This document shows positions 21,516 through 46,386 of a DNA stretch of 64,000 nucleotides, one piece after another. Numbering within the stretch: position 1 is the first letter of the stretch; each line of letters opens with the position of its first letter. A program made the position numbers and the translations under genes. The notes beneath the pieces are model-generated. The model was not told the DNA's origin. It worked only from the letters and a program-made list of their open reading frames with translations, and did no database searches. Source of the stretch: Geovibrio thiophilus (GTDB taxonomy: Bacteria > Chrysiogenota > Deferribacteres > Deferribacterales > Geovibrionaceae); the NCBI RefSeq assembly GCF_004087915.1, contig NZ_CP035108.1, positions 930,001 to 994,000 of the forward strand. The letters run 5' to 3'.

Positions 21516-21649
21516 ACAGAACCGTATCTGCGGTACGGGAAATTTGACTCTAATTACGGTAGTGCTCCCGATTGTTATATATTTGCTTCAACTTTAATTT
21601 AGCTTAGGAGTTTTTGATTGCTCCGAAAGCAAATTATAAGGAGGACCAG

Positions 21650-23185
21650 ATGTTCAGTCGGTTTCAGAAGATTTATTTCTTAATTTTATGTTTTGCGGCA
21701 GTTCTTTTTACCTTGCCGTCATATGCTAAAGACAGAGTATATGAAACAGATGTTGTGGTAGTCGGTGTCGGAGGTGCCGGTGTTTCCGCTGCTGTTTCCG
21801 CAGCCGAATCAGGAGCAAGAGTCATAGCCATTGAGAAGCAGGAAATCCCCGGCGGGAGTTCAAATTTTGCGGAAGGGCTGTTCGCAGTGGATACAGATCA
21901 GCAGCGGCAGGAGTTTATTGATCTTACCGCTGAGGAAGCTTACAGGGTTTCCATGGAGTTTAATCAGTCCTACAGGGTGAATCCCGCTCTTGTGAGAATG
22001 TATCTCAAGGAATCCACACGGACGATCAAATGGCTTGAAAAACAAGGTGTCAAATTTAAAGTTTTCAGAATGTCTGCTGAGGAGCCAAAAGTATGGCATC
22101 TGGTTGAAGACTACGGTAATGCCCACCACGGAGCGGCGCTGATCGCCAGAATGGTTGAGAGGGCTAATGAACTCGGAGTAAAAATAATGTACAGCACTCC
22201 GGGGAAAAAACTTATATACAAAGACGGCGTTGTTAAAGGGGTTGAAGCGGAAGACTCCAGAGGCAACAGAGTTATTATCAATGCAAAGGCTGTTATTCTC
22301 GCCACTGGAGGTTTCCCTGACAGCAAAGAGAAGATCGCGGCATGGACTCCCTTCGACCCTTCTAAAGTTGAGGCTTTTGTAAATTTGAATAAAACCGGAG
22401 ACGGCATAGACATGGCAACTCAAGCCGGTGCGGATACTGTCGGCTTCGGACTGATGCTGCACCCTGCGATCAAAGATAAAGGCATCCCCCTTATCGGAAA
22501 TCTCGTGGGAATGAGCTGGGAGCCTAACCTATGGGTAAATAAGTACGGCGACAGGTTTATTGATGAAACCATAGTACATAATTTCGCTCTTGCAGGAAAT
22601 GCAATCGAGGCACAGAGAGACAGCTTTGTCTGGTCAGTCTTTGATGAAAATACAATTAAGTATGTCGAGCAGGAAGGTTCACGTACAGGTGTCGGCGTTC
22701 TTGTACCTGTTATGACCAAAATGCTCAATCTGAGAAAAGAAATTAAAGCCGCAGTTGATGCAGGCAGTGAAAAAGTTGTAACTGCTAAAACACTTGATGA
22801 ACTTGCTGCAAAAATGAAGGTTGACCCCGCGAGATTTAAAGCGTCTGTTGCAAAGTTCAACATGATCAAAGAGAAAAATCTTGATCCTGATTTTACGAGA
22901 AACCCCGCAACTGTAATCCCTGTCAGTTCCTCTGATTATTATGCAATTAAGGTTCAGCCGTATTTCTTTGTAACTCTCGGCGGTGCCCGTGTAACTCCTG
23001 CATTGGAAGTTACTGATGCTCAGGATAAAGTTATTAAGGGTCTGTATGCGGCTGGATGCGACGCAGGCGGTCAGTACGGCAGAACATATACTCTTTGGGC
23101 TTCGGGTTCCGCATATTCTTTCGCTGCGACTTCAGGAAGAATATCCGGTGTCAAAGCTGCCGAATATATAAAATCTGTCAAATAA
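21650..23185 (+). CDS. Periplasmic FAD-dependent oxidoreductase, flavocytochrome c/fumarate-reductase family
   Basis: 511 residues. A Sec signal (FLILCFAAVLFTLPSYA) is followed by the FAD-binding motif VVVGVGGAGVSAAVSAAESG, GGSSNFAEG and a C-terminal FAD segment GLYAAGCDAGGQYG. The fold is that of Fcc3, UrdA and methacrylate reductase, but the heme domain is separate, encoded downstream. Residues that bind C4-dicarboxylates look absent: the TRDKAS-like site reads IVHNFALA, the HHTMGG site reads YFFVTLGG, and GANRLGGNAL reads GRTYTLWASGSA. So it should reduce (or oxidise) something other than fumarate. The ATG at 21650 follows AAGGAGG. Confidence 0.82.
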   Translation: MFSRFQKIYFLILCFAAVLFTLPSYAKDRVYETDVVVVGVGGAGVSAAVSAAESGARVIAIEKQEIPGGSSNFAEGLFAVDTDQQRQEFIDLTAEEAYRVSMEFNQSYRVNPALVRMYLKESTRTIKWLEKQGVKFKVFRMSAEEPKVWHLVEDYGNAHHGAALIARMVERANELGVKIMYSTPGKKLIYKDGVVKGVEAEDSRGNRVIINAKAVILATGGFPDSKEKIAAWTPFDPSKVEAFVNLNKTGDGIDMATQAGADTVGFGLMLHPAIKDKGIPLIGNLVGMSWEPNLWVNKYGDRFIDETIVHNFALAGNAIEAQRDSFVWSVFDENTIKYVEQEGSRTGVGVLVPVMTKMLNLRKEIKAAVDAGSEKVVTAKTLDELAAKMKVDPARFKASVAKFNMIKEKNLDPDFTRNPATVIPVSSSDYYAIKVQPYFFVTLGGARVTPALEVTDAQDKVIKGLYAAGCDAGGQYGRTYTLWASGSAYSFAATSGRISGVKAAEYIKSVK

Positions 23186-23198
23186 TATTTAATGTTCC

Positions 23199-23227
23199 GG
23201 CATACCGGGAGCAGGTTCCGGTATGCC
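23199..23227 (+). other. Hairpin downstream of flavoprotein gene
   Basis: GGCATACCGG (23199-23208) and CCGGTATGCC (23218-23227) form a perfect 10-bp stem without a T-run. It may stabilise the flavoprotein mRNA or lower read-through to the cytochrome gene. Confidence 0.5.
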
Positions 23228-23397
23228 CTCGCTGAAATATTCCAACATTCTTTGCGTTTCATTTTTGTGCACAGGCGGTATCTCTCATCGTTCAGATCAT
23301 AGCAACTGATTTGTGCGGGTTCAGAGAGATGCAGCCTCCGCTTATGGTTATTATATCACCGGTTTAACAATGCTTTTCAGAGCACAAGGAGTTTGCA

Positions 23398-24081
23398 ATG
23401 TCTGAAATATTAAGAAAGATGCCTCTGGTTTTGCTGGGCACCGTCTTAAATCTATACGGAGCTGTTTTTATTTCCGCTGCTGCCGCGGATTTTAATTATG
23501 CCTGTTCTGACTGCCATGAGAATATTAAGAGCGTTTTAACTGAAAAACACCCTGAGGTCGGACAGGGGGAATGCTTTCTCTGCCATACGGAAGGGGAAAA
23601 CACTGTCCGATTAGGTAAAATAATACACGAAAAACATATAGCCGATATGGGAATATCCGAGGAAACATGTTTAGCATGCCATAAGCTTTCAGCAGACAAT
23701 ACAATAACCGTTAATAACACCGAGAATATAACTGTTGATAAATCCGACATAGCAGATGCCGCAGAAAAATTTGTTACTTTTTATGAGCCGGGAAAATTGG
23801 CAAACTCACATAAAAATGCCGGAGAGTATTGTCTTTCCTGCCATAAAACATTTGATATAGATGAATCGGAAAATATGTCTTCAAAGTGTATTGCCTGCCA
23901 TGGCGATTACGAGGTAATGGCAAAAAAAACTGAATCATCAGCATTTATCCGTAACCCGCACAAGCACCATTATCAGAGTCTTGATTGTACTAAATGTCAC
24001 ATAGTCCATGATGATTTTACTGACTACTGTTTAAAATGCCATCAGTGGAATTTTACATGGCAGCAGAAGATAAAAAAATAA
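23398..24081 (+). CDS. Seven-heme periplasmic cytochrome c
   Basis: 227 residues with an N-terminal signal or anchor (LVLLGTVLNLYGAVFISAAAA) and seven CxxCH sites: CSDCH, CFLCH, CLACH, CLSCH, CIACH, CTKCH and CLKCH. The last four resemble the tetraheme domain fused to the flavin domain in Fcc3-type fumarate reductases. It most likely delivers electrons to the flavoprotein encoded upstream, forming a two-subunit reductase similar in plan to the methacrylate reductase of Geobacter. AAGGAG precedes the ATG. Confidence 0.88.
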   Translation: MSEILRKMPLVLLGTVLNLYGAVFISAAAADFNYACSDCHENIKSVLTEKHPEVGQGECFLCHTEGENTVRLGKIIHEKHIADMGISEETCLACHKLSADNTITVNNTENITVDKSDIADAAEKFVTFYEPGKLANSHKNAGEYCLSCHKTFDIDESENMSSKCIACHGDYEVMAKKTESSAFIRNPHKHHYQSLDCTKCHIVHDDFTDYCLKCHQWNFTWQQKIKK

Positions 24082-24105
24082 CTTCCTCCTAAACCTTTAT
24101 TGATT

Positions 24106-24137
24106 AAGGGCAGATCGTCCGCAGCGGTCTGCCCTTT
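24106..24137 (+). terminator. Terminator after cytochrome gene
   Basis: AAGGGCAGA (24106-24114) and TCTGCCCTT (24128-24136) form a 9-bp stem, followed by a T-rich stretch (TGATTATTTATTG). Confidence 0.65.
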
Positions 24138-24354
24138 GATTATTTATTGACAGAGTTTAGGGATACTTTATTCGGGTATATTGCTTCATAGGAAAAATAC
24201 TCATCGGCGTTAAGAGAACGGACTACATTCAAAAAAGATAAATCACCCTGCCGGCAGAGGACAATTCTTGGTTAAATATAGTAATTGCTCTGATTTACGA
24301 TCTTCCTTTTCTTTAATACTCTGAATACGGATACATTAGTAAGGAGGTATTGTA

Positions 24355-25254
24355 ATGTTTAATTCTGCCAAAATAGTCTTTGCAGCATTTCTGACAGCAG
24401 TATTTATGAGCATCGCACCGTTCACCGCTTTTGCAACAGAGGGAGGCGGCGGCGCATACGGAAACGGTGCCGAAGATTCCATGTCTGGGAATGTCCCGGG
24501 TCCCGGATTCTGGTTTGTCAACTACATGAACTATTATCATTCGGATGAGTTTAAGGATAACAACGGTGATACTCTTTTAGGAAAAGATCAGTTTGAAGTG
24601 ACAACTTTGGCGAACATTTTCCGATTCGCCTACACTTCAAATGTTCAAATTCTCGGGGGTAATTTAGGCGGTTACCTGCTTGTTCCTCTGGTTTATGCCG
24701 ATGTTAAAACTCCGGTCGGCTCAGACACAAATGAGGGTCTGGGCGATATGACAATTTCCCCGTTCATTTCATGGCACACAAAAAACTTTCATTGGGCTGT
24801 TGCTTTTGACGTGACAACACCCACCGGTGATTATGATAAAGATGAAGTCGCCAACATTGGGCGCAATTATTTTACCTTTGAACCCCTTGTGGCATTTACT
24901 TACCTTGCCGACAACGGCTTTGAGTTTACCGGCAAGCTCATGTACGACATCAATACTGAAAACAATGATACTGATTACAAATCCGGTCAGGAACTCCACG
25001 CCGATTATTTTGCCGGTTATCATGCGGGTCCGTGGACATTCGGTCTGAATGGTTATCTTTATAAGCAAGTTACTGATGATGAACTGAACGGAAACGAGGT
25101 TAAGGATAACCGCGGTCAGATTATGGCGGCAGGACCTATGGTTTCATACTTTTTCAAAGGGCAGAGCATTGTTCTGAAATATCAGAAAGAGTTTGAAGCT
25201 GAAAACAAATCTGAAGGAGAAAAAGTTTGGTTAAAATACTTTGTGCATTTCTAG
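24355..25254 (+). CDS. Outer-membrane protein of the SphA/MetA phenol-degradation family (second copy)
   Basis: 299 residues with a signal peptide (AFLTAVFMSIAPFTAFA). The mature part starts GPGFWFVNYMNYYHSDEFKD and includes TPTGDYDKDEVANIG, YFTFEPLVAFTYLAD and a final aromatic strand (VWLKYFVHF) suited for barrel assembly. It is homologous along its length to the protein at 16676-17584. Its place between the flavin/cytochrome pair and the dehydratase-like genes suggests a channel for the substrate of this cluster. AAGGAGG lies 7 bases before the ATG. Confidence 0.75.
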   Translation: MFNSAKIVFAAFLTAVFMSIAPFTAFATEGGGGAYGNGAEDSMSGNVPGPGFWFVNYMNYYHSDEFKDNNGDTLLGKDQFEVTTLANIFRFAYTSNVQILGGNLGGYLLVPLVYADVKTPVGSDTNEGLGDMTISPFISWHTKNFHWAVAFDVTTPTGDYDKDEVANIGRNYFTFEPLVAFTYLADNGFEFTGKLMYDINTENNDTDYKSGQELHADYFAGYHAGPWTFGLNGYLYKQVTDDELNGNEVKDNRGQIMAAGPMVSYFFKGQSIVLKYQKEFEAENKSEGEKVWLKYFVHF

Positions 25255-25307: not shown

Positions 25308-25339
25308 GTCATCCCGCGGTTCACCGCGGGGTGACGCTC
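25308..25339 (+). terminator. Rho-independent terminator
   Basis: GTCATCCCGCGG (25308-25319) pairs with CCGCGGGGTGAC (25324-25335) over 12 bp with one G-U pair. CTCTTTTG follows. It separates the outer-membrane protein from the dehydratase-like operon, whose own promoter should lie in 25340-25530. Confidence 0.75.
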
Positions 25340-25533
25340 TTTTGACAAACTATCTAAACAGAAAAAGTTATCGGTTAAAGAAGAATCCCTATTCAACCGT
25401 AAGAGTTTTGCCTAAATACAACTGGATGAATAATCCGTGAAAAAACAGTTATCCAACCTATTTCCTTAATGACAGAAAACACTAAAATTTAAACAGTGGT
25501 TTTCCCAAAATACGCAAAAGGAGTGGAGACGCC

Positions 25534-26691
25534 GTGAATGCACAATTCAAATCAACAATTTTACAGGATTTCAGAAAAACTGCGGCTAATCCTGTTAATG
25601 TTTCATTGCAGGAGTGGAAAAAAAGCGGCAGGAAGATAATCGGGTGTATGTATCATTACATACCCGAGGAAATTATTACTGCCGCCGGCATGCTTCCTTA
25701 CCGCATGAAGGCTGTAGGAAGCAAAGGAACGGAATTGTCCGAGTCATGTTTCACACAGATAAACTGCGGCTTTGTCCGGCATCTTTTTGATTCCGGAGTA
25801 AGAGGAGAACTCGGTTTCATTGACGGACTGGTATCTGTCAATAACTGTGATCATATAAGACGGTTTTATGAAAACTGGCAGAAAAAAATTAAAACTCCTT
25901 ATATGCACTTTATGCCGTTTCCTAAGAAAAGCGGCAGGGAGCAGGCAGAGGTGTACCGCAAGGAGCTTGCAGACTTCAAGAACAGCCTTGAAAAACATTT
26001 TAATGTTCAAATTACTGATACTAAGCTTAAAAAAGCTATAGAGCTTCATAATGAAACCCGCCGTCTTCAAAGAGAGCTGTATGAACTCAGAAAAAAGAAA
26101 AACCCCCCGATCACCGGTGCGGATGTACATGCGGTTATGGTTGCATCTTCCTCAATGCCTAAAGAAAAATATAATACAATGCTCACAGGTCTTTTGGAGG
26201 AACTCTATACGGGTGAAGGTATATCTGACTACTCTGAACGTATTATGGTTGTCGGCGGCGAACTGGATGACCCGAAGTTTATAGAGGTGATTGAAAGCCA
26301 AGGATGTCTCGTTGTTGCAGATTCCCTCGGATACGGTTACAGAGCCATAGCGGAAGATGTGGATACTGACATTGAACCTCTTACTGCTCTCGCGGAATAT
26401 CATGTGCTTAAACGTCCTGCATGCCCCAGAATATTCGGAACTACATTCAACAGAAACGATTTTGTAAGGCACATCGCTGAAGAGTTTAAGGTTGACGGCG
26501 TTATTTCGGTACGTCTGCCTCTTTGCGACGAGTGGTCATTCGAGCAAGTTAACCTCATAGGATACTTGAAAAAACATGGCATACCCCACCTTACTCTTGA
26601 CATTGATTACATTCTGAGCAGCACGGGACAGATAAAAACAAGGAGTCAGGCGTTTCTTGAAACAATCTCAGGAACAAAGCATGGGCGTTAG
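25534..26691 (+). CDS. 2-hydroxyacyl-CoA dehydratase/benzoyl-CoA reductase-like subunit A
   Basis: 385 residues of the HgdAB/BcrBC superfamily, which bind [4Fe-4S] or double-cubane clusters and accept electrons from an ATP-driven activase. The cluster cysteines are present: SESCFTQINCGF (Cys72/Cys78), VNNCDHIRRF (Cys105) and PLCDEW (Cys331). GCMYHYIPEEIITAAGMLPYRM is the usual start of the domain. GTG is the start, 5 bases after GGAG. No CoA ligase, CoA transferase or enoyl-CoA gene is nearby, so a CoA-thioester substrate is not supported; a double-cubane-type small-molecule reductase is an alternative. Confidence 0.8.
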   Translation: MNAQFKSTILQDFRKTAANPVNVSLQEWKKSGRKIIGCMYHYIPEEIITAAGMLPYRMKAVGSKGTELSESCFTQINCGFVRHLFDSGVRGELGFIDGLVSVNNCDHIRRFYENWQKKIKTPYMHFMPFPKKSGREQAEVYRKELADFKNSLEKHFNVQITDTKLKKAIELHNETRRLQRELYELRKKKNPPITGADVHAVMVASSSMPKEKYNTMLTGLLEELYTGEGISDYSERIMVVGGELDDPKFIEVIESQGCLVVADSLGYGYRAIAEDVDTDIEPLTALAEYHVLKRPACPRIFGTTFNRNDFVRHIAEEFKVDGVISVRLPLCDEWSFEQVNLIGYLKKHGIPHLTLDIDYILSSTGQIKTRSQAFLETISGTKHGR

Positions 26692-26734
26692 AAGGATAGT
26701 AACAGATTTTATTAATCCATTTCGGAGGCAAAAA

Positions 26735-28027
26735 ATGACAACAAAACCTATAAGAGGGCTTGAACGTTATTATGAATACAGAGAGCGCTGGAAAGCGATA
26801 ATATCTGATATGGAAAAGTCTCCAGTTCCTAATCCTGCTCTTCTTGCTCTTTTCAGGCTCTTTCTGGAAAATGATGAGAAAACGATTGATTGCGCTGAAA
26901 ATAACAAGCCTTTTCTCTCAAGCTGGTACGGCAATGCGCCGGAGATTTATGCTGCCATGGGAATACATTATATCTGTGTTGTGGATAACCTGCTTGCACA
27001 TCAATCTTTTACAGATGACCTAGCCGGAATCGACGCAAATATTGTACCGGATGATATGTGCGGACTGATTAAACTCGGAGCCTACGCAGTTGAAAAAGGG
27101 CTGGTTCCCACTCCCACAGGAATGATTGCTATGCTTGAACCGTGTGATGCCCAGTCTGTTCTCCATGAGTCGTGGATTAACAACGACGCATGGAAAGATG
27201 TGCCGTATTTCGCGCTTGATCCCGCATACAGAAGCGGAAAAGAGGATTTTGAGTACTTTGTCGGTGAACTGAGGAGAATGATTGCGTTTCTGGAAAACCT
27301 TACCGGAATCAAGCTTGACTGGAACAGGCTTCGTGAAGTGATCGAAGAAACCAACAAGCAATATGAAATATGGGATGAATATAACCAGCTCAGGAGAGCC
27401 GTTCCATGTCCCGGCGGTTCTTTTCAGGGTTCAGGTATAGGCTGGGCAATTTCTCAGCATATTATGGCAGGCCACCCCGGGGCTACTGATCTGTTCAGAA
27501 TGCTTCTTGCTGACGAGGAATCCAGATATAAAGCTAATAAAGGCTGGCTTGAGAAGGAAAACAGCAGAGTGCTGTGGGCGGATCTGATCGGAACAGTTAA
27601 CGCTCCGATTGGAGAATGGCTTGAAAAAGAACACGGAACGGTCGTTGTTCAGGATTTTCAGGGCTATACTCCATATTCCCATATAGACACCTCGACAGAA
27701 GAAAGCATGCTGCTGGGATTGGCTAAGCGTAACCTTGCGGAAGTGCCTATGATCAGGCAGGCGCGGGGGAATGTGGATGTATTCATTGAGGATGTGATCA
27801 GGATAGTTGAAGATTACAAGATTGATTGTGTATTTTTCCCCGGTCATGTGGGACATAAGGATCAGTCTGCGTCTGTAGGCTTTTTGAGAGAAGCATGCAG
27901 GGAACTCGGAGTTCCTCTTCTGGTTTTGACCATGGATATTTTTGATCCGCGCTATTTGCCTATGGATAAATTCACACATATTGTCAATGAGTTTTTTGAG
28001 ACTCATAAACTGGGCAAATTTAAATAA
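26735..28027 (+). CDS. 2-hydroxyacyl-CoA dehydratase/benzoyl-CoA reductase-like subunit B
   Basis: 430 residues, same superfamily as the preceding gene and likely its heterodimer partner. LSSWYGNAPEIYAAMGIHYI opens the domain. Two cluster-type cysteines are seen (DDMCGLIKLGAYAV, Cys109; LEPCDAQSVL, Cys137). At the third expected position the sequence reads FFPGHVGHKDQSA, His instead of Cys, so cluster ligation in this subunit may be unusual. The ATG at 26735 follows GGAGG; an upstream in-frame ATG overlaps subunit A and has no ribosome-binding site. Confidence 0.78.
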   Translation: MTTKPIRGLERYYEYRERWKAIISDMEKSPVPNPALLALFRLFLENDEKTIDCAENNKPFLSSWYGNAPEIYAAMGIHYICVVDNLLAHQSFTDDLAGIDANIVPDDMCGLIKLGAYAVEKGLVPTPTGMIAMLEPCDAQSVLHESWINNDAWKDVPYFALDPAYRSGKEDFEYFVGELRRMIAFLENLTGIKLDWNRLREVIEETNKQYEIWDEYNQLRRAVPCPGGSFQGSGIGWAISQHIMAGHPGATDLFRMLLADEESRYKANKGWLEKENSRVLWADLIGTVNAPIGEWLEKEHGTVVVQDFQGYTPYSHIDTSTEESMLLGLAKRNLAEVPMIRQARGNVDVFIEDVIRIVEDYKIDCVFFPGHVGHKDQSASVGFLREACRELGVPLLVLTMDIFDPRYLPMDKFTHIVNEFFETHKLGKFK

Positions 28028-28052
28028 ACTTATCTGAAAATTCAAGGATACC

Positions 28053-28079
28053 GCTGATCAGCAGAGATTGCTGATCAGC
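28053..28079 (+). other. Intercistronic hairpin of two palindromes
   Basis: GCTGATCAGCA (28053-28063) and TGCTGATCAGC (28069-28079) are an 11-bp inverted repeat, and each arm contains the self-complementary GCTGATCAGC. It lies between subunit B and the activase gene and may set their relative expression: activases are needed in small amounts. Confidence 0.5.
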
Positions 28080-28101
28080 ATAAAAAATTTGGAGAGGACG
28101 A

Positions 28102-28893
28102 ATGTTTGTTGCGGGCATAGATTTAGGTTCAGCCACCGGAAAAGTTGTCATAATGGAGAACGACAGGGTAGCTTCAACCGTGGTGATACGTTCAACCGCA
28201 AGCCCTGAAAAAACTGCCGCATTAGCCATTGAGGAAGCTGCATCCAAAATAGGGCTGAAAGCTGTTTCTGATCTCGAATACATAGTCGGAACAGGCTACG
28301 GCAGAAGCGGTGTTTCGTTTATAACTGAAAATATCTCTGAGATAACCTGCCATGCAAAAGGTGCGCACTGGCTGAACCCGGGCATCAGAACCGTAATAGA
28401 TGTCGGTGGTCAGGATTGTAAAGTTATTTCTGTGAACGCTGACGGTAAGGTTATTGAGTTTGCTATGAATGATAAGTGCGCAGCGGGAACAGGCAAGTTT
28501 TTTGAAGCAATGGCGAGAACACTTGACTGTTCTTTGGATGAATTTGCTGCACTGGCATTGAGATCAGGAAATCCATGCTCAATCACAAAACAGTGCAGTG
28601 TATTTGCGGAATCAGAAGTTATTACCCTCATAAATAACGGAGAAAGGCAGGAAGACATAGCCGGCGGGCTTATTGATTCAATTGTCCGCAGGCTGCTTTC
28701 AATGATTTACCGTGTCGGAGCTGTTCCTCAAGTCGTTCTTACGGGCGGATGCGCAAGAAACATGGCACTCGTGAAAAGTCTGGAAGTCAGTCTGGGTATT
28801 CCCGTTATAAGAACAAAAGAGGATCCGCAGATTACCGGCGCTTTAGGCGCGGCTTTATTTGCTCAGGCAAAGGCTTTGATACAAAATAAATAA
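28102..28893 (+). CDS. ATP-dependent activase (BadF/BadG/BcrA/BcrD, HgdC family)
   Basis: 263 residues of the ASKHA ATPase fold. GIDLGSATGKVVIMENDRV is the phosphate loop, VIDVGGQDCKVISV the second phosphate motif, and VLTGGCARNMALV the adenosine motif. The two cysteines that hold the homodimer-bridging [4Fe-4S] cluster appear in NDKCAAGTGKF and KQCSVFAESE. It hydrolyses ATP to fire single low-potential electrons into the HgdAB-like partner encoded just upstream. GGAGAGG precedes the ATG. Confidence 0.9.
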   Translation: MFVAGIDLGSATGKVVIMENDRVASTVVIRSTASPEKTAALAIEEAASKIGLKAVSDLEYIVGTGYGRSGVSFITENISEITCHAKGAHWLNPGIRTVIDVGGQDCKVISVNADGKVIEFAMNDKCAAGTGKFFEAMARTLDCSLDEFAALALRSGNPCSITKQCSVFAESEVITLINNGERQEDIAGGLIDSIVRRLLSMIYRVGAVPQVVLTGGCARNMALVKSLEVSLGIPVIRTKEDPQITGALGAALFAQAKALIQNK

Positions 28894-28896
28894 AAT

Positions 28897-29667
28897 GTGC
28901 GGTGGATTGTGTCAGATTTCGACCATTATATAAACTGTGTTTCATCTTTAATCAGTGAGTTTGTGTCAGAAGGGAAAAACTGCAAGATTCTCTCCTGCGA
29001 TGCTGAAAACAGCCATGCGCTTTTGCAGATCAAATCAGAAAAAAGGGCGGGCTCGGGTCTTGTAATGAAGTCTGAAACATTTCTTGAGCTGGGCGGACCT
29101 GTTTCAGGCTCGTGCAATCTGTCTCTTTATTCCATAAATGAACAGTTGGTCAAGGACGGCAGAATCCGTCTTATCGGACCGGATGTTCATGAATGCAGCG
29201 GAGAGAGTTCTTTCGGACAGATTGTTATTGTCGCAGGGAAAAAATTGACGGATGAGGATTATCTTGATTTGCAGAGATCTGTATACACAGGAGAACAAAT
29301 AGAAGGTTATATGATGAAAAGTACAACTGGACATATTTGGTCAAGAATAAGCAGGGATGCCGCTGCAAAAGGTTTTGATTTTAAGTTTCTCGGAACCGCA
29401 CTGGTCAATATCATAAAATTAAAAATGCCATCTGTTGCTTCTGCTGAGATAGTCTTTGTCACTTCTTCAAAAAAAGATATTGAGAAACTTAATCAGATAA
29501 AGATGAAAGTTTCTGAAATTTATCAGCAAATCAAAGAGAAAAAATGGAAGCAGAGGGGGGTTGATATTTATCAGTGTGCTTTTCATGGAAACTGCAGCTC
29601 CTGTAAGGATAAACCGATTTGCGATGAAGTTAACAGAATTTCCAGCGCAAGAAAAAAAGTTGTGTAA
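28897..29667 (+). CDS. Mini acetyl-CoA synthase (CdhC/AcsB)-like protein
   Basis: 256 residues. The stretch LELGGPVSGSCNLSLYS, GRIRLIGPDVHE, IVIVAGKKL, IEGYMMKSTTGHIWSRISRD, KGFDFKFLGTALVNIIKL and AEIVFVTSSKKDIEKL follows, in order, the middle domain of acetyl-CoA synthase and archaeal CdhC (ELGGPK, IGPD, V.VAGK, EG.MH...IW.RIS, G.K...IG..L...K, I..V.V.F.TD). The usual A-cluster domain is missing. In its place the last 35 residues hold CAFHGNCSSCKDKPIC, four cysteines that could bind a metal cluster. It sits between an activase and a nickel ATPase gene. Function unknown. Start codon GTG at 28897 or 28909. Confidence 0.7.
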   Translation: MRWIVSDFDHYINCVSSLISEFVSEGKNCKILSCDAENSHALLQIKSEKRAGSGLVMKSETFLELGGPVSGSCNLSLYSINEQLVKDGRIRLIGPDVHECSGESSFGQIVIVAGKKLTDEDYLDLQRSVYTGEQIEGYMMKSTTGHIWSRISRDAAAKGFDFKFLGTALVNIIKLKMPSVASAEIVFVTSSKKDIEKLNQIKMKVSEIYQQIKEKKWKQRGVDIYQCAFHGNCSSCKDKPICDEVNRISSARKKVV

Positions 29668-29696
29668 ATTGTGTGCGGGAATATTAGGAGTAAATA

Positions 29697-30503
29697 ATGA
29701 AATCTGATAAAGAATTACTTTGCAGGAATACAAGAATCTATGCCGTCTGCGGTAAAGGCGGTGTGGGGAAAACCGCTTTTACCGCCTTACTTACAAGAGC
29801 ATTGGCTGAAAGAAAATCTACGGGAAGACTTTTAGTGATAGACGCTGATCCTGCATTAGGACTTGCCAATGCTTTGGGCATTAAAATCTCAAAAACAATC
29901 GGACAGGTGAGAGAAGCTGTTATTCAAACAGCAAAGGACGGCATTGAAACGGAAATTCAGGAAATGGCCGGTATGTTGGACTATTTGCTGCTTGAAACAC
30001 TTGTTGAAGGAAACGGTTTTGCTCTTTTGGCTATGGGGCGCTCTGAGTCAATGGGCTGCTATTGCTCAGTGAATAATCTTTTACGAGATGCGATAAACGA
30101 ACTATCTGATAAGTTTGACACAATCTTGATAGATGGGGAGGCAGGTCTGGAACAGATAAACAGGCAGGTTGTTGAAACGCTTGATTATCTCATTATTCTT
30201 TCAGATTCATCGGCTAGGGGGCTACAGACAGTCGGTCTTATAAAAAAAATGACAGAAGAAGATAAAGTGATTTCATGCAAAAGCATCGGGCTGGTTTTCA
30301 ACAGAGTGAATAGTATTAACGAAATGCTCCGCCGTACCGCAAATGAAATTGGTATAAATATTCTTGGAGTAATTCCAAACAGCGAACAACTGGCTGATTT
30401 TGATATGCGCAGCATTGCTTTGACAGGTTTGCCCAAGCATAATGAGGCGTATGAGGCAATCGACACTATACTTGAGCAGCTTATCAATAGAGCGAATTTT
30501 TAA
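29697..30503 (+). CDS. CooC/AcsF-type nickel-insertion ATPase
   Basis: 268 residues of the MinD/ParA-like P-loop family. VCGKGGVGKTAF is the deviant Walker A and VIDADPALGLANALG follows. MGCYCSVNNLLRDAI matches the CooC signature with the CxC metal site at the dimer interface. TILIDGEAGLEQINRQ is Walker B. Such proteins insert nickel into CO dehydrogenase or acetyl-CoA synthase. No CODH is visible here, so its client is probably the mini ACS-like protein immediately upstream, or the dehydratase-like pair. AGGAG lies 6 bases before the ATG. Confidence 0.87.
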   Translation: MKSDKELLCRNTRIYAVCGKGGVGKTAFTALLTRALAERKSTGRLLVIDADPALGLANALGIKISKTIGQVREAVIQTAKDGIETEIQEMAGMLDYLLLETLVEGNGFALLAMGRSESMGCYCSVNNLLRDAINELSDKFDTILIDGEAGLEQINRQVVETLDYLIILSDSSARGLQTVGLIKKMTEEDKVISCKSIGLVFNRVNSINEMLRRTANEIGINILGVIPNSEQLADFDMRSIALTGLPKHNEAYEAIDTILEQLINRANF

Positions 30504-31114: not shown

Positions 31115-31216
31115 GCGGTGAAAACAGATATTAAATACCGCATAGTGTACGGTGAATAACTGTTGCTTTTGCGGTGAATAATAGTTATATTTACATTAAA
31201 ATTTGCGGTGAATATT
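31115..31216 (+). promoter_or_regulatory. Repeated GCGGTGAAT boxes in the Fic gene promoter
   Basis: Four direct copies of (G)CGGTGAA(TA) stand at 31115, 31150, 31171 and 31205. The last overlaps the ribosome-binding site of the Fic gene. They are likely operator sites for autoregulation by the Fic protein's C-terminal winged helix. Confidence 0.5.
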
Positions 31217-32323
31217 ATGTGGATATATGAGCAGAGCGATTGGCCTCACTTCAAATGGAATGCAGAAGCTTTAGCATACAAGCTTGCTGATATTCGTTAC
31301 AGACAAGGACTTCTTCTTGGAAAGATGGCTGGGATCGGGTTTGATTTAAAGCAGGAGGCAAGCTTAAAAACTTTGACCAGTGATATTGTAACTTCTTCGG
31401 CAATTGAAGGTGAACTCCTCAACCGGGAAGAAGTACGTTCATCTATTGCACGCAGGCTTGGAATCGATATTGCAGGGCTTGTTCCTGCCAGCAGGAATAT
31501 CGATGGTTTTGTGGAAATGATGATTGATGCTACCCATAATTTTTCTCGAGATTTAACTGAAGAAAGACTTTTTGCATGGCATTCTGCATTGTTTCCTACC
31601 GGTCGAAGCGGAATGTACAAAATTGCTGTCGGACAGTGGCGAACACCAGAGTCTGGTGCAATGCAGGTTGTTTCCGGTGCAGTAGGACGTGAAAAGATAC
31701 ATTTCGAAGCCCCACATGCAGATAAAATTTCTGACGAAATGGTTGCTTTCTTAAATTGGTTCAATTCTGATACCACTCTTGATCCCATCATAAAAGCAGG
31801 AGTTGCCCATCTTTGGTTTGTTACCATTCATCCTTTTGAAGACGGCAACGGCCGCATAGCCCGTGCTATTACTGACATGCTTCTTGCCCGTGCAGATGGT
31901 ATTTCTGAGCGTTTTTACAGTCTTTCAAGCCAGATTGAGGCAGAGCGTAAAGACTACTATTTTCAGCTTGAGCGCCAACAGAAGGGAGCTACTGATGTAA
32001 CCGGATGGCTTGAGTGGTTTCTGGGCTGTCTTGGCCGTGCCTTGGAGCGTGCTGAGGATAATTTGAAGTCCATTATTTACAAAACAGAACTGTGGAATCA
32101 TTTCAAGCAGTTTTCAGTTAATGAGCGTCAGCGGATGATAATTAATTTAATGCTTGACGACAGCTTTGAAGGATATATGAACACCTCAAAATATGCTAAG
32201 CTCGCCAAATGTTCCAATGATACGGCTTTGAGAGACATTCAGGAGTTGAAGGCTTACGGTGTGTTTATCCAAAACATTGCAGGTGGGCGGAGCACAAGCT
32301 ACCGTTTGCGGGATCCTGTGTAG
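31217..32323 (+). CDS. Fic-family AMP-transferase (class II) with N-terminal DUF4172 and C-terminal winged helix
   Basis: About 368 residues. The N-terminal block WIYEQSDWPHFKWNAEAL is DUF4172. TSSAIEGELLN is the class II inhibitory helix ([S/T]xxxE[G/N]). HPFEDGNGRIAR is the complete catalytic Fic motif, so AMPylation activity is expected but self-inhibited. Residues about 305-365 look like a winged helix (MNTSKYAKLAKCSNDTALRDIQEL). I chose the ATG at 31217, six bases after GGTG. Cytoplasmic; target unknown. First gene of the island after attL. Confidence 0.9.
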   Translation: MWIYEQSDWPHFKWNAEALAYKLADIRYRQGLLLGKMAGIGFDLKQEASLKTLTSDIVTSSAIEGELLNREEVRSSIARRLGIDIAGLVPASRNIDGFVEMMIDATHNFSRDLTEERLFAWHSALFPTGRSGMYKIAVGQWRTPESGAMQVVSGAVGREKIHFEAPHADKISDEMVAFLNWFNSDTTLDPIIKAGVAHLWFVTIHPFEDGNGRIARAITDMLLARADGISERFYSLSSQIEAERKDYYFQLERQQKGATDVTGWLEWFLGCLGRALERAEDNLKSIIYKTELWNHFKQFSVNERQRMIINLMLDDSFEGYMNTSKYAKLAKCSNDTALRDIQELKAYGVFIQNIAGGRSTSYRLRDPV

Positions 32324-33366: not shown

Positions 33367-34633
33367 TGTTGACTACATAAAATGATTTAGGACAAAAATC
33401 GTTCTGAATTACATTAAGTGAAATAGTCACGACTTAATCTTTCACATAATGGTTTAACAAGCGGTGAGCCATAAGTTATCCTCTATGGGTTCGGGCAGAA
33501 CACATAGGAGGAAATAACAATGACTCACCAAGAAAAACTTATCAGAAATAAGCTCGGTTTACTAGAGCTTGGTTCCTATCTCAAGAATGTATCAGAAGCT
33601 TGCAGAGTAATGGGCTACAGCAGAGACACATTCTATCGTGTAAAGAATGCCTATGATAACGGCGGGGTAGACGCTTTAGTTGAACAAACCCGCCGGAAAC
33701 CTAACACCAAGAACAGAGTTCCTGAAGAAGTTGAAGCTACTGTATTGGAGTTTACCCTTGAAGAGCCGTCTTATGGTCAGAAGAGAGCCAGTGACGAGCT
33801 TAGGAAGCGTGGAACGTTTATCTCTGCTGGCGGTATACGCTGTGTCTGGCTCAGACATGGTCTGGAGACCTTTAATAAGCGTCTTCATGCTTTAGAAGAA
33901 CATGTTGCAAAGACTGGTGCTGTGCTCACAGAGAAGCAGCTTGAAACTCTTGAAAGAGCCAAAGAGGAGAAGATTGCCTGGGGCGAGATTGAGACTGAGC
34001 ATGTTGGTTACCTTGGAGCTCAGGATACTTTCTACGTTGGCACGATGAAAGGTGTCGGCAGGATTTATCAACAGACCTTCATAGATACCTATTCGGCTGT
34101 AGGCTTTGCGAAGCTCTATAACACCAAGCAGCCGATCAACTCAGCTGATATGCTCAATGACAGAGTTATACCTTTTTTTGAGTCCTACGGCGTACCTCTG
34201 CTAAGAGTTCTGACTGATCGTGGAACCGAGTACTGTGGTAAAGCTGATGCTCACGATTTCCAGTTGTTCTTAGCCCTAAATGACATCGAACACACTAAAA
34301 CCAAGGCTAAGAGCCCTCAGACGAATGGCATCTGTGAGAGATTCAACAAAACGATTCTGGATGAATTTTACAAAGTCGCTTTCAGAAAGAAAATCTATCA
34401 CAGCATAGAAGAGCTTCAGATTGACCTTGATGAATGGCTACATAAGTACAATTACGACAGAACTCATCAGGGCAAACGCTGCCAAGGCAGAACTCCTATG
34501 GAAACATTTACGGAGAATCTTTCGTTGGCAAAGGAAAAAATATTGGGTATGAATAGAGAAGAACTGACACTTATCAGTTAACTGACACCGAACCTCAAGA
34601 GGGTAACTGTCAGATTATGTCGTGGTCAGCACA
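33367..34633 (+). mobile_element. IS481-family insertion sequence
   Basis: The element is bounded by imperfect inverted ends: TGTTGACTACATAA at 33367 and, at the right, TTATGTCGTGGTCAGCACA ending at 34633. One transposase gene fills it. I cannot identify a clear target-site duplication. Confidence 0.6.
33520..34581 (+). CDS. IS481-family transposase
   Basis: 353 residues. An N-terminal HTH (LGSYLKNVSEACRVMGYSRDTFYRVKNAY) is followed by an rve integrase domain with acidic residues in TFIDTYSAVGFAK, LTDRGTEYCG and NGICERFNKTILDEFY. It appears intact. TAGGAGG precedes the ATG. Confidence 0.9.
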   Translation: MTHQEKLIRNKLGLLELGSYLKNVSEACRVMGYSRDTFYRVKNAYDNGGVDALVEQTRRKPNTKNRVPEEVEATVLEFTLEEPSYGQKRASDELRKRGTFISAGGIRCVWLRHGLETFNKRLHALEEHVAKTGAVLTEKQLETLERAKEEKIAWGEIETEHVGYLGAQDTFYVGTMKGVGRIYQQTFIDTYSAVGFAKLYNTKQPINSADMLNDRVIPFFESYGVPLLRVLTDRGTEYCGKADAHDFQLFLALNDIEHTKTKAKSPQTNGICERFNKTILDEFYKVAFRKKIYHSIEELQIDLDEWLHKYNYDRTHQGKRCQGRTPMETFTENLSLAKEKILGMNREELTLIS

Positions 34634-35659: not shown

Positions 35660-36529
35660 TTAGACTGAAATAAGGTGGAAACTCTCAGTCATTTTATCAT
35701 CTTTTTTCCAGATTTGAATCTCTAATCCGTTATAAGCTTCATATGGCGTTCTGTCGCCCAGAGAAGAATGCGGTCTTCCTGTATTGTAGAAATTTATCCA
35801 GTCCGCCAGTCCTCGTTTCAGCTCGTGTCCGTTATCAAACGCATGGAGATAGACAAAGCTATATTTCAATGTCCGCCAGATACGCTCAATCATGACATTA
35901 TCCATCCAACGCCCCTTGCCGTCCATAGAGACCTTAATCCCTGCATCTTTAAGGGTTTGCGTAAATTCATAGCTGGTAAACTGACTCCCCTGATCAGTAT
36001 TAAAGATTTCAGGTGTTCCGTACTTTTCAAGGGCTTCCTCAAGCGCAGCCACGCAGAAATCAGAATCAAGGCTGTTTGAAAGTCTCCAACTGAGAACTTT
36101 TCTGCTGTACCAATCCATAATAGCCACCAGATAGAGGAATCCTCTTCTCATTGGTATGTAGGTAATATCCGAGCACCAAACTTGATTAGGGCGGTTTATA
36201 TCAATATCTCTAAGCAGATACGGATATGTCTTATGCTCCGGATGTGGAACACTGGTCTTGGGCTTCTGATAAACAGCAGCTATGCCCATCTTCTTCATAA
36301 GCCTGCTGACACGCTTGCGGCTAACATTGTATCCATACCTTCTGATAAGCTTTGCCATCTGTCTGGAACCAAAGTCAGGTGTCGCCATAAACTGCTTATC
36401 TATTATGCGCATGAGTTCAAGATTCAACGCCGACTCGCCTGACTCTTGATAGTAATAGCAGGAGCGGCTGATGCCCAAAAGCTCGCACTGACTGCTGATG
36501 GACAGGCTGCTTTTTACGTTATCGATCAT
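35660..36529 (-). CDS. IS3 transposase OrfB (DDE integrase)
   Basis: 289 residues. HTH_21-type N-terminus (SQCELLGISRSCYYYQ), then the rve domain with catalytic acids in VWCSDITYIPM, FNTDQGSQFTS and MIERIWRTLKYSFVY. The ATG at 36529 has its own GGAGGA site. Intact. Confidence 0.9.
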   Translation of the reverse strand: MIDNVKSSLSISSQCELLGISRSCYYYQESGESALNLELMRIIDKQFMATPDFGSRQMAKLIRRYGYNVSRKRVSRLMKKMGIAAVYQKPKTSVPHPEHKTYPYLLRDIDINRPNQVWCSDITYIPMRRGFLYLVAIMDWYSRKVLSWRLSNSLDSDFCVAALEEALEKYGTPEIFNTDQGSQFTSYEFTQTLKDAGIKVSMDGKGRWMDNVMIERIWRTLKYSFVYLHAFDNGHELKRGLADWINFYNTGRPHSSLGDRTPYEAYNGLEIQIWKKDDKMTESFHLISV

Positions 36530-41419: not shown

Positions 41420-41553
41420 TGTGGATTTGTTTTCGTTTTGTAGACACTTTAAAAGCATATTAGATTGATGCAGGTCATTATATATTGTTTTCAAAGTGAT
41501 AATAACTTATAAAAAAGGTATAATTGATATTTAATACTGCAGGAGAAGACGGT

Positions 41554-43539
41554 ATGTATCTTCAAAAAATTACTATCAAAAACTATCGGTGTTTTCAGAA
41601 CTTCTCCATGGAATTTCAGAAAGGACTTAATGTTATTATTGGTGCAAATAACTCTGGTAAAACAGGATTACTCTACGCAATTAGACTCCTAAAAGATCCC
41701 TCAGTATATGTGGATGATTTTAATAAAAATGACCTATTAGAATTTAATAATAAATACCGTAATGAGGCTCCTCAAATAGAGGTTACATACACTATTCGCC
41801 ATTTGATATTGGAGAGTGACACGGAAGATGAAAGCATTATCCGGCTATTGCCATTCCTGGGGATGGATAATCTGAACGAGACTTTAACTGAAGAGAATGG
41901 AGTATATCAGTATGATGTTACAGCTGTAATAAAAGCGGTTTGTTCGCTTGATGTTAAGGTTCTTGGCGATTATAAAAGTGCGATTTCTGACATTACAGAT
42001 TTTAACGGATTTGTGACCGTGCTAAAATCATTTATCTCTCGTTATTCATGGTCATATTATAACGGAACAAACGATACGGTTGCAGACAGAAAAGACGCTT
42101 TGGGAATATTTGACATTCGCTTTATTGGTGCTGAAAGAACGAGCGAAGCTGTTAGTAAAGAAACACGCCGTGAGATAGATAAATTTGCAAAAGACCAGAA
42201 CAACATTACAGCTTTAGAACAGTTAAAGTCAGACATATCAATTCAAATGAAAGATCTTTTGCAACCGGCTCTTGAGAAACTTTCACAACTTTTTGAAAAT
42301 GAAAATAACGATATAGGTCTTACTCGCGGAAATGTTACGATATCCCATGATTTGCGCCCAAGCGTATCGGTTGGAGACGCTTATGTAACTGAGGTGCGAG
42401 ATACTCATGCAGATTATAATATTCCATTGGATTACAATGGATTAGGATATAACAACTTAATCAGTATATACATGCTCATAAAATTGATGGAAATACGCAA
42501 AGGAAGAGATTTCCGGATTCTATGTCTAGAGGAGCCTGAGGCTCACCTGCACCCTGCGATGCAGTATAAACTTTTCAAATATCTGCGTAAACTGGACGAA
42601 ACAGACAAGCTCAATCAACAAATTTTTGTAACCACGCATTCAAGCAATATTTCTGCAGTTGCCGGTATTGACAATATGTATATGCTAGCACATGAACGTG
42701 TGAATGGGCAATCAAACTGTAAACAGCAGAGCTTGGCGGTTCATTTTGCTACGAAGCCAGATGCAAAAATACATCTGACAAAGTTTCTCGATGTTACCCG
42801 ATCTGACATGCTTTTTGCTGACAAAGTGATATTGGTTGAAGGCATAGCCGAAAAACTACTGCTGCCGTTATTTATGGAAAAATGCGGTTGTCCGTATGAA
42901 GATGAACATATTTCAGTCGTTGAGATTGGAGGCAAGCATTTTGGTCACTTTGTCGAGCTTTTTAACGGCAACGCAGTAAGCAAAAAAGTGCTTTGCATCA
43001 CTGATAGAGATTTCCGATGGCGAGATGACGGTGCTATACAATGTTATTCAGAGTATGAAAATGGCACAACTTCGCACATTGAGGACTTAAAAGAAGGCTT
43101 TCCGATCAATAACTTTCAAATATATACCCAAAATCTCGGAGGACGAACGTTTGAAGATGAGCTTTTTTTCACAAACTTAGATAATACTGCTGTTGGGAAG
43201 GCATTGTTCAAACTCGTGGCGAGTCCAAGTGTTTCGAGTTTTGCTGATACATACGGTTTTGATTATGCTGTGTGGAATAATATCGAAAAACACAAAGAGA
43301 TAGACGGACGTTCTCGACCTTTGATTACGAAACTGTTAGATGAATTTAACACTGTAATTACTTCTGATAATTCTAAAGAGGATTTTTATAAGCGTTTATT
43401 TTTCGCTGAACTATTTCTCTATTATGCCGAAGCCAAAAAAGGTGATACTGCACTGAATATTCTGACTGATACTGCAATCTCTAACAATCTTATTGTGCCG
43501 AAATATATTAAGGATGGACTAATATGGCTGTTGAAATAA
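41554..43539 (+). CDS. gajA: OLD-family nuclease, GajA of a Gabija-type defence system
   Basis: 661 residues. The N-terminal ABC-type ATPase has Walker A IIGANNSGKT, a signature region near LDYNGLGYNNLISI and Walker B LCLEEPEAHLHP. The C-terminal TOPRIM domain has VILVEGIAEKLLLPLF and LCITDRDFRW, supplying the metal-binding acids. Gabija GajA nicks or cuts foreign DNA when nucleotides are depleted. It overlaps the helicase gene by 16 bp. ATG at 41554 follows AGGAG; an upstream TTG lacks support. It is larger than the classical 578-residue GajA. Confidence 0.85.
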   Translation: MYLQKITIKNYRCFQNFSMEFQKGLNVIIGANNSGKTGLLYAIRLLKDPSVYVDDFNKNDLLEFNNKYRNEAPQIEVTYTIRHLILESDTEDESIIRLLPFLGMDNLNETLTEENGVYQYDVTAVIKAVCSLDVKVLGDYKSAISDITDFNGFVTVLKSFISRYSWSYYNGTNDTVADRKDALGIFDIRFIGAERTSEAVSKETRREIDKFAKDQNNITALEQLKSDISIQMKDLLQPALEKLSQLFENENNDIGLTRGNVTISHDLRPSVSVGDAYVTEVRDTHADYNIPLDYNGLGYNNLISIYMLIKLMEIRKGRDFRILCLEEPEAHLHPAMQYKLFKYLRKLDETDKLNQQIFVTTHSSNISAVAGIDNMYMLAHERVNGQSNCKQQSLAVHFATKPDAKIHLTKFLDVTRSDMLFADKVILVEGIAEKLLLPLFMEKCGCPYEDEHISVVEIGGKHFGHFVELFNGNAVSKKVLCITDRDFRWRDDGAIQCYSEYENGTTSHIEDLKEGFPINNFQIYTQNLGGRTFEDELFFTNLDNTAVGKALFKLVASPSVSSFADTYGFDYAVWNNIEKHKEIDGRSRPLITKLLDEFNTVITSDNSKEDFYKRLFFAELFLYYAEAKKGDTALNILTDTAISNNLIVPKYIKDGLIWLLK

Positions 43540-45473
43540 CTTCCGGCGATATTTTTGCTAATGAGCAACTCAATAAACACGCCAAGATTTATGCTGGCCC
43601 AGGTGCAGGTAAAACACATTTCTTGGTTGAAAATGTAAAACATATTGTAACAACTTACCCACTAGTGGCACAGAGCCATCAACGAAAGGTACTATGTGTA
43701 ACTTATACTAATGCTGCGGTTGATGAAATAAAGCGTCGCTTAGATAGATATGCCGATTCTGTGGAAGTGTATACGATTCATGGTTTTATTATTGAACATA
43801 TCATCAATCCATTTCAACAGGATTTAAGGCAAATAATGCAAGACGATTTTGGAATAATCGTAAGCGAAAAGGGTCAAATTACTTCACAAGTAGAAGGTTT
43901 GGGAATATTGCATGGCGTCGATAAAGATGAAATATTCCAATATATTCTTGATATCACTGATGAAACAAACAAACCAGAGTACAGCAAAAAAATTATGGGG
44001 GATGTCTGTATCGATATTGGTACTTACAACAGCGATCCCGATGGATTTGCCTCAAAAAATATGAATAAAAAATTTCATGCATCGTCCCGAATAGCTGAAG
44101 AACATATATTGCCGATAAAAGAGTATGTCTGGTCAATCGTTAGAAAATTGACACATAACGAGATACTATATTTTGGGTATCGGATCCTCGAAAAGAATCA
44201 TACTGCACTCTATGCAACAAGAGTCAGGTTTCCTTTTATTTTTGTTGATGAATTTCAGGATACGAACCCTCTGCAGACAAAACTGATTAAAATGATCGGT
44301 CATAAATCTACCGTGCTTGGCATCATAGGTGATTTAGCACAATCTATCTATAGCTTTCAAGGAGCTAAACCGTCGCAATTTGCAGGATTTGCACTAGAGA
44401 GCGATAGAGAACTAATTGAATATGTTGTCAATGGAAATAGACGGTCTACTGTTAACATTGTTAACTTTTGTAATTATCTTCGGCAATCTGACGCAAATGT
44501 ATCGCAAATAAGCATAAAGACATATGCCGATGACACCGTAAGACAACAAACGGAATCTAAAAAAATTCACTTCATTATTGGAAGTGGTGATGCAGAGATG
44601 CGTCATATCGCACGAATTGTTGCTGATGGTGGTGTAGTATTGACAAGAACATGGGCAGCGGCATTCGAATATATCAATGAGGTGACACAACCTCAAGTTC
44701 AAAGCCTTCGCGAAATTTACAATAGTTATTATACTTCACCGATTGATATTCGACGAGACATCGAAGAACATGGTTATGTAACTTGGGTTAGAGCATTCAG
44801 ATTTATCTTTAGTCTATGGAATGGATTTCGTACCGGTTCGTTTGTTGATGTATTACGAGCTATTTCGTATTACAGACCTATCGAGCCAAAGTTGATTACC
44901 CCAAAGTTAATTTCTCAAATCAAGAAGCTCTCTTCCTCTATCTTTGAAGCTCTTTCAGACTTCACAATTGATAAAACCACGGTAAATGTTATTGGAGATT
45001 TCAACACTAAAACTGCAGATCCACAGTTTTCGGAGATTATCAGCATTTTGGGTTCTGATTTCAAAATTCCTGTATTTGACGAAGCCGACCGAGAAGATTT
45101 GAAAAATAACGTGAGCAGTCTAAATTGGCAAACATCTTATAAACTGTTTACAGAAGTTTTCTCTGCAGGTAGCAAATATATGACTGTACACCAAGCTAAG
45201 GGGCTTGAATGGAAAAGCGTAGTTGTTAGTTTAAAACCAAACCCGCGGAGCAACATGGATAATATCACGCTTGAAAGAATGTTCTCAAACCCGCAGTTGT
45301 TAGCTGAAGATTCCGCGCAAGAATTTACTCGTATGTATTATGTTGCTTGTAGCCGTGCAAAAGAAGATTTATACATACATTTGCCCAGCGATTTTAACCA
45401 ATCCATCATTGAAAGCGCTTTGAATAGTTTCTCAATAAAAAGTGGACATAATATTGATTATGAATTCCTATAA
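43524..45473 (+). CDS. gajB: UvrD/Rep-like helicase, GajB of a Gabija-type defence system
   Basis: 649 residues. Superfamily 1 motifs are all visible: Walker A AGPGAGKTHFL, LCVTYTNAAVDEIKRRL (Ia), FIFVDEFQDTNPLQ (II), GDLAQSIYSFQGA (III), TVHQAKGLEWKSVVV (V) and YYVACSRAKEDLYIHLP (VI). In Gabija the GajB subunit senses DNA ends or ssDNA and activates GajA. Overlap with gajA indicates translational coupling. It is longer than typical GajB (about 500 residues), with extra sequence between motifs III and V. Confidence 0.86.
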   Translation: MAVEITSGDIFANEQLNKHAKIYAGPGAGKTHFLVENVKHIVTTYPLVAQSHQRKVLCVTYTNAAVDEIKRRLDRYADSVEVYTIHGFIIEHIINPFQQDLRQIMQDDFGIIVSEKGQITSQVEGLGILHGVDKDEIFQYILDITDETNKPEYSKKIMGDVCIDIGTYNSDPDGFASKNMNKKFHASSRIAEEHILPIKEYVWSIVRKLTHNEILYFGYRILEKNHTALYATRVRFPFIFVDEFQDTNPLQTKLIKMIGHKSTVLGIIGDLAQSIYSFQGAKPSQFAGFALESDRELIEYVVNGNRRSTVNIVNFCNYLRQSDANVSQISIKTYADDTVRQQTESKKIHFIIGSGDAEMRHIARIVADGGVVLTRTWAAAFEYINEVTQPQVQSLREIYNSYYTSPIDIRRDIEEHGYVTWVRAFRFIFSLWNGFRTGSFVDVLRAISYYRPIEPKLITPKLISQIKKLSSSIFEALSDFTIDKTTVNVIGDFNTKTADPQFSEIISILGSDFKIPVFDEADREDLKNNVSSLNWQTSYKLFTEVFSAGSKYMTVHQAKGLEWKSVVVSLKPNPRSNMDNITLERMFSNPQLLAEDSAQEFTRMYYVACSRAKEDLYIHLPSDFNQSIIESALNSFSIKSGHNIDYEFL

Positions 45474-46140: not shown

Positions 46141-46386
46141 ATGCAAAATCAGATTATATCATCTGCAAAGATTCTTGGGAAGGCGATTAAAGCATTTCGT
46201 GAGAGAAAGGGGCTTACGCAAAAGGAATTGGCGGATCTTGTCGGTGTCAAACAGTCAACCGTATCCAACATTGAAACCGCAAGCGGAGATTTGCGATTAA
46301 GCACTTTGTTTCGTCTTATATCTGCACTTGAAGCTGATATGACTTTCAACGAGCGGAAAAAGAAAAATAATCCGGATGCTTGGTAA
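46141..46386 (+). CDS. hipB: HipB antitoxin (module 1)
   Basis: 81 residues, Cro/C1-type HTH: LGKAIKAFRERKGLTQKELADLVGVKQSTVSNIETASGDLRLSTLFRL. It neutralises the HipA kinase and represses the operon. ATG at 46141 follows AAGGGTG. The stop overlaps the hipA start (TAATG), so both are coupled. Confidence 0.9.
   Translation: MQNQIISSAKILGKAIKAFRERKGLTQKELADLVGVKQSTVSNIETASGDLRLSTLFRLISALEADMTFNERKKKNNPDAW

Follow-up and report, generated by a model that had tools for sequence, protein, structure and literature searches.

What would two dehydratase-like reductase subunits have to do with a fragment of acetyl-CoA synthase (ACS) and a nickel-type ATPase in a bacterium without carbon monoxide dehydrogenase (CODH)? 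The question is raised by five genes at positions 25534-30503 of a 64,000-nucleotide stretch of the Geovibrio thiophilus genome (contig NZ_CP035108.1, positions 930,001 to 994,000; hereafter the window, with all coordinates counted from its first letter). The host genome is complete, with one contig of 3.0 Mb. A first-pass annotation had proposed the five-gene make-up, which was borne out by intact frames, curated profiles and matches to solved structures. These are the sole genes of the interval, all on the + strand and all with intact reading frames, listed here together with one motif of the fourth:

25534-26691, + strand: HGD-D subunit A (electron-storing, BzdN/DCCP-like), starting at GTG preceded by GGAG
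26735-28027, + strand: HGD-D subunit B (presumed catalytic [4Fe-4S] subunit, similar to HadB/BzdO), starting at ATG preceded by GGAGG at 26724
28102-28893, + strand: ATP-dependent activase (BcrAD_BadFG / CoA_E_activ), from curated profiles
28897-29667, + strand: mini-ACS, the middle domain only of acetyl-CoA synthase / CdhC, from profiles and fold
29575-29622, + strand: C-terminal Cys motif of the mini-ACS, C227-x5-C233-x2-C236-x5-C242, from alignments
29697-30503, + strand: CooC-type nickel ATPase, from profile, structure match and motifs

The set recurs in many unrelated anaerobic bacteria and therefore very probably represents one undescribed enzyme system. We favour, with moderate confidence, the reading that the five genes encode an ATP-driven low-potential iron-sulfur reductase with an ACS-derived metal subunit and its CooC loader.

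Recurrence of the cassette

With mini-ACS as bait, the first-pass expectation that the five genes occur together was met by complete sets at the window and at 12 further loci (L034, L037, L038, L039, L045, L046, L048, L050, L052, L053, L054 and L105), in several phylum-level lineages and with variable gene order. Chance is excluded by this recurrence. A molybdoenzyme gene sits between subunit B and the remaining cassette genes in L038, and CooC is partly masked by N in L039. The loci L040, L041, L044, L049 and L106 lack only a visible CooC or are cut by contig ends, while L047 shows mini-ACS alone at a contig end. Two more genomes carry split sets, with mini-ACS and CooC together (L035, L036) and A, B and activase elsewhere (L080, L079), and A/B pairs without an adjacent mini-ACS also exist.

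In a broad sample, mini-ACS was present in 9 of 385 genomes, and those examined also encode A subunits of the family. Named hosts include Desulfatibacillum, Desulfobacterales, Myxococcota, and Abyssobacteria and Poribacteria metagenome-assembled genomes. Mini-ACS was absent from the 50 same-phylum genomes searched, hence the window copy was probably acquired horizontally. A scan of the genome contigs with the window mini-ACS as single query gave no match, and a four-sequence alignment was needed as the query because the divergence is too great for a single-protein scan; a nine-sequence alignment had no usable stretch. Similarly, the Pfam profile PF03598 misses divergent mini-ACS proteins, the copy in genome G351 being found only via the family alignment. 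The distance matrices of all ten gene pairs correlate (permutation p 0.0005-0.0095), a result that shared ancestry alone would also give.

No further gene family recurs in most cassette flanks. Neighbours that might hint at the substrate were sought and none was general: aldehyde:ferredoxin oxidoreductase with ferredoxin at two loci, a DMSO-reductase-family molybdoenzyme at one and a GMC-type oxidoreductase at two. The five-gene set is not described in the openly licensed literature searched, including papers on the mlp gene cluster and on CODH context, and we provisionally regard the system as undescribed.

Individual loci showed features of their own. Mini-ACS and CooC of L035 and L036, both from Abyssobacteria-type genomes, are divergent from genes for aldehyde:ferredoxin oxidoreductase and ferredoxin. 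A subtype with two different activases was found at L037, L039, L050, L052, L053, L054 and L105, and a protein of about 220-238 residues without Pfam match adjoins mini-ACS in two loci (L049:8086-8799 and L051:10729-11388). The locus L033 of genome G136 was rejected as a cassette member, as it carries a split true ACS with an intact A-cluster motif.

Reductase subunits, cluster ligands and activase

Both reductase subunits matched the HGD-D profile PF06050 (cut-off 28.4 bits), subunit A with 290.8 bits (E 2.5e-86) and subunit B with 147.5 bits (E 9.3e-43). The best profile match of subunit A was BzdN and that of subunit B was HadB, by profile and by fold; the AlphaFold model of subunit B gave HadB, BzdO, MbdO and DCCP as structural matches. 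These matches support the membership of both subunits in the ATP-dependent superfamily of (R)-2-hydroxyacyl-CoA dehydratases (HAD), benzoyl-CoA reductases (BCR) and double-cubane cluster proteins (DCCP), the electron-gun family to which they had first been assigned. The activase was identified by BcrAD_BadFG (E 4.4e-56) and exceeded the cut-off of TIGR00241 (246.5 vs 125.4 bits), with candidate cluster cysteines read directly in NDKCAAGTG and KQCSVFAESE.

The equivalog cut-offs of characterised enzymes were not reached, neither those of class I BCR (BzdN 158.5 vs 453.8, BcrC 125 vs 421, BcrB 19.8 vs 487 bits), nor those of HadBC (155.2 vs 700; 26.4 vs 750 bits), nor that of DCCP (NF040772, 206 vs 350 bits). 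Phylogenetic analysis placed the A subunits of cassette genomes in one clade (100/100) that excludes BzdN, DCCP, HadC, MbdN and the A-like proteins of G136, so the grouping with a characterised dehydratase that the first-pass annotation had named as grounds for giving up its proposal was not seen. Four rows marked 'NOACS' within the clade are genomes with mini-ACS elsewhere, and rows from the short loci L069, L074, L076 and L078, which may be wrong frames, are placed outside it. Fine placement in this tree is unsure because several branches are long.

In BzdN, the [8Fe-9S] cluster is bound by Cys36/73/100/263/293/327, and in BzdO the [4Fe-4S]-OH2 cluster by Cys95/128/380 (PMC11971306). Profile alignment placed these residues at positions 40/78/105/266/297/331 of subunit A and 135/163/400 of subunit B (numbered in the frame from 26657), and all nine positions are Cys in 15 of 15 relatives. 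The proposed link to double-cubane proteins accordingly holds for the relatives, in which the six cysteines of subunit A are complete, but only in part for the window copy, which has four of the six plus a displaced Cys. Its subunit A retains C78, C105 and C331, the complete proximal cubane set, together with C297; the distal set is broken by Y40, with C38 two residues before, and by G266. Subunit B retains C135 and C163, but position 400 (27854-27856) is His, against Cys in 15 of 15 relatives. As three of nine ligands have been lost or moved in the window copy, its clusters probably differ. From the residues present, subunit A may carry a single cubane and subunit B an altered, perhaps His-ligated, cluster.

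The class I BCR systems BzdNOPQ and MbdONPQ resemble the cassette in having an electron-storing plus catalytic HGD-D heterodimer and a BadF-type activase, and the six double-cubane cysteines of BzdN and three cysteines of BzdO are conserved in the cassette family. In contrast to these systems, the cassette forms its own clade, adds mini-ACS and CooC, falls short of the NCBIfam cut-offs and does not conserve the catalytic residues His131 and Tyr97 of BzdO, and the window copy is without two of six double-cubane cysteines and one of three catalytic-cluster cysteines. DCCP with DCCP-R from Carboxydothermus shares the fold, the ATP-driven activase and, in the relatives' subunit A, the [8Fe-9S] ligand pattern; however, DCCP is homodimeric, with a single type of subunit, whereas the cassette encodes two distinct subunits and, in addition, an ACS-like protein and a nickel-type ATPase. 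In the (R)-2-hydroxyisocaproyl-CoA dehydratase system HadBC/HadI, HadB is the best structural match of subunit B. The broken distal set of window subunit A resembles HadC and MbdN, HadC likewise having no Cys equivalent at 266 and one at 38, but the cassette misses the HadBC cut-offs and has mini-ACS and CooC in addition.

The ACS-derived protein and its CooC partner

Mini-ACS matched CdhC PF03598 with 58.5 bits (cut-off 24, E 9.7e-16) and did not reach the NCBIfam cut-offs for full-length ACS (72.4 vs 372; 62.9 vs 356 bits). In a Foldseek search with its model (pLDDT 83.5), ACS provided the only PDB matches at E <= 0.001, the best being 1oao with 1.9e-13. Both sequence and fold match the ACS middle domain only, for which contacts are reported with CoA and modelled with the corrinoid protein CoFeSP (PMC12289521). 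Compared with AcsB and CdhC (400-730 residues), the mini-ACS of about 250 residues has neither the N-terminal CODH-docking domain nor the C-terminal nickel-ligand domain. Its description in the first-pass annotation as a middle domain without the A-cluster domain needs correcting, as the protein ends in a conserved Cys motif that occupies the position of the A-cluster [4Fe-4S] ligands: when it is aligned with full ACS, the terminal cysteines coincide with the start of this ligand set. As in AcsB/CdhC with AcsF, a middle domain followed by a Cys cluster is thus paired with a CooC/AcsF-type ATPase.

Alignment of 18 mini-ACS sequences showed that E64, L65, G66, P68, S72, M139, W148 and R150 are invariant, as are C233, C236 and C242 (CxxCx5C). 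The model is poorly ordered at the Cys motif (pLDDT about 55-73), which may reflect a metal site modelled without its metal. Mini-ACS proteins form a clade (100/100) separate from full ACS, and the window protein branches outside all other members with weak support (80/59).

For the fifth gene, CooC1 (3kje) was by far the best solved-structure match (E 1.8e-13), with the CYC metal motif aligned. The deviant Walker A motif GKGGVGKT (29751-29774) and the CYC motif (30057-30065) both align with CooC1, and all 17 proteins in the family alignment have an unchanged CXC motif. In CooC-1 of Carboxydothermus, the two CXC cysteines form a Zn-binding site for which Ni competes (PMC6006190).

The absence of a CODH gene from the window, noted at first reading, extends to the whole genome: neither CODH nor full ACS was found in the complete host sequence. 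Genome G351 likewise carries the cassette, with no CODH or full ACS found. The client of CooC therefore probably lies inside the cassette. Among ten cassette genomes tested, seven had CODH above the curated cut-off and most had full ACS; at the loci examined, the cassette has no recurrent neighbour from the CODH/ACS families. A lone Prismane match in the host genome was rejected as CODH, as it is a hydroxylamine reductase (HCP).

Working model, alternatives and surroundings

In the reductase system that we favour, the activase would hydrolyse ATP and fire electrons into the A/B heterodimer, where they would pass through A to B, as in BCR. Subunit A would store electrons, on a double cubane in most relatives and probably on a smaller cluster in the window copy, and subunit B would hold an open-coordinated catalytic [4Fe-4S] cluster. 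Mini-ACS and CooC would work as a pair like ACS and the nickel insertase AcsF, with CooC delivering metal, most likely nickel, to the Cys motif of mini-ACS or through mini-ACS to subunit B. Mini-ACS, having kept the CoA-contacting ACS middle domain, would dock on the A/B pair and present or complete the active site. The leading guesses for the substrate are a CoA thioester or a small C1/CO-type ligand. More tentatively, the cassette could define a new class of nickel-dependent ATP-driven reductases, in which the CooC-loaded, ACS-derived subunit would give a Ni-Fe-S site to a BCR-like electron gun, independent of CODH and the Wood-Ljungdahl pathway; we consider this step possible rather than probable. 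A reductase with nickel-insertion proteins and no known nickel enzyme in the operon is found in the isoprene reductase operon (isr) of Acetobacterium (PMC10134865), but the isr reductase is an FAD-dependent oxidoreductase with HypA/HypB, and its proteins are unrelated to those of the cassette.

Several points weigh against the favoured system. The ACS C-terminal domain with its Ni-binding Cys-Gly-Cys is absent from mini-ACS, which stops 14 residues past the Cys motif, and C227 of that motif is absent in L037, L050 and L052, three loci of the subtype with two activases. The metal carried by CooC-like ATPases need not be nickel. The catalytic residues of BzdO named above are unconserved in subunit B, and the window copy, off-family at three of nine reductase ligands, could be drifting or repurposed. 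Binding of the cassette proteins to one another is a prediction.

Among the alternatives, it is rather unlikely, in our estimate, that the cassette holds a metallocofactor assembly line, in which a mini-ACS scaffold and the CooC ATPase build or insert the A/B cluster, iron-sulfur or heterometal, and leave a finished enzyme without an ACS-derived subunit. AcsF/CooC proteins are indeed known as maturation ATPases (PMC6006190; for AcsF and ACS, as cited within PMC10134865). The short mini-ACS with its compact Cys motif and the A/B pairs that lack an adjacent mini-ACS would also fit, but the whole ACS middle domain is kept, which exceeds the needs of a scaffold. It further counts against an assembly line that BCR, HAD and DCCP enzymes are not known to require such factors.

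It is unlikely, in our estimate, that the window set, having been acquired horizontally, is decaying or repurposed, so that conclusions on the family would not hold for it. The set has no counterpart in the 50 same-phylum genomes, adjoins a mobile/defence island, has long branches and is changed at three of nine reductase ligand positions; yet its five frames are intact, most ribosome-binding sites are plausible, and the activase and CooC motifs are kept, while the branching of its mini-ACS outside all others (weak, 80/59) fits an old lineage. The window copy is a divergent member of a real, conserved system.

An ordinary (R)-2-hydroxyacyl-CoA dehydratase or aryl-CoA reductase, with neighbours that are merely regulatory or CoA-binding helpers, would explain the best matches to HadB and BzdN and the canonical activase, but is unlikely, as the BCR, HAD and DCCP equivalog cut-offs are all missed widely and the A subunits form a clade of their own. 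It also counts against this explanation that dehydratases and BCRs are not known to have a CooC or ACS partner. A helper role in the canonical CODH/ACS (Wood-Ljungdahl) pathway, such as reactivation or maturation of ACS, would suit the CODH and full ACS of many cassette genomes but is nearly excluded by the host and G351, which carry the cassette with neither, and by the lack of a recurrent CODH/ACS family next to it at the loci examined.

ATP-driven electron guns attain potentials that biology otherwise seldom reaches, as in Birch reduction and the reduction of acetylene and azide, and few nickel enzymes are known. By joining the nickel and electron-gun toolkits in genomes without CODH/ACS, the cassette points to undescribed low-potential chemistry, shows the ACS middle domain in use outside acetyl-CoA synthesis and provides a concrete gene set for expression.

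As for gene boundaries, the frame of subunit B is open from TTG 26657, but residues 1-29 of this longer frame have pLDDT <50. The start is most likely ATG 26735, and gene 2 therefore does not overlap gene 1. The family alignment suggests that the true start of mini-ACS is perhaps GTG 28909. Plausible ribosome-binding sites precede most of the five genes. Two further elements were noted around and within the cassette:

25312-25345, + strand: terminator-like hairpin separating the cassette from the porin gene upstream, consensus match only
28053-28079: palindrome GCTGATCAGC-N7-GCTGATCAGC between the subunit B and activase genes, by direct reading

The hairpin, a match to the consensus only, suggests that the cassette forms a separate unit of transcription; on the downstream side, some 700 bases hold no cassette gene before the next gene begins. 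Given this hairpin and gap, the interval first delimited, 25534-30503, matches the likely operon.

Upstream, at 21614-25254, lie genes for an exported vinyl-phenol-reductase-like flavoprotein (331 bits, below the cut-off), a multihaem cytochrome c and a porin of the Phenol_MetA_deg family, with a PAS kinase and a LuxR-type regulator encoded ahead of them; the flavoprotein, cytochrome and porin look like a separate respiratory reductase unit. Far away from the cassette, the host genome encodes another HGD-D protein (L086 7865-9599, about 629864-631598 of contig C1), which is shorter and is accompanied by an activase of its own but not by mini-ACS or CooC. Genome G136 (L084, L085, L033; 3.7 Mb) is a large expansion of HGD-D reductases, with 52 subunit A profile matches, many paired with B-type subunits, and its ACS gene, split into two frames, is next to a CooC. 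Further along the window, a low-GC island carries a Gabija anti-phage system at 41524-45473 (GajA 336 bits, GajB 304 bits) as well as Fic (31208-32323), two transposase genes (33520-34581 and 35660-36529) and a HipA-like gene (46380-47699).

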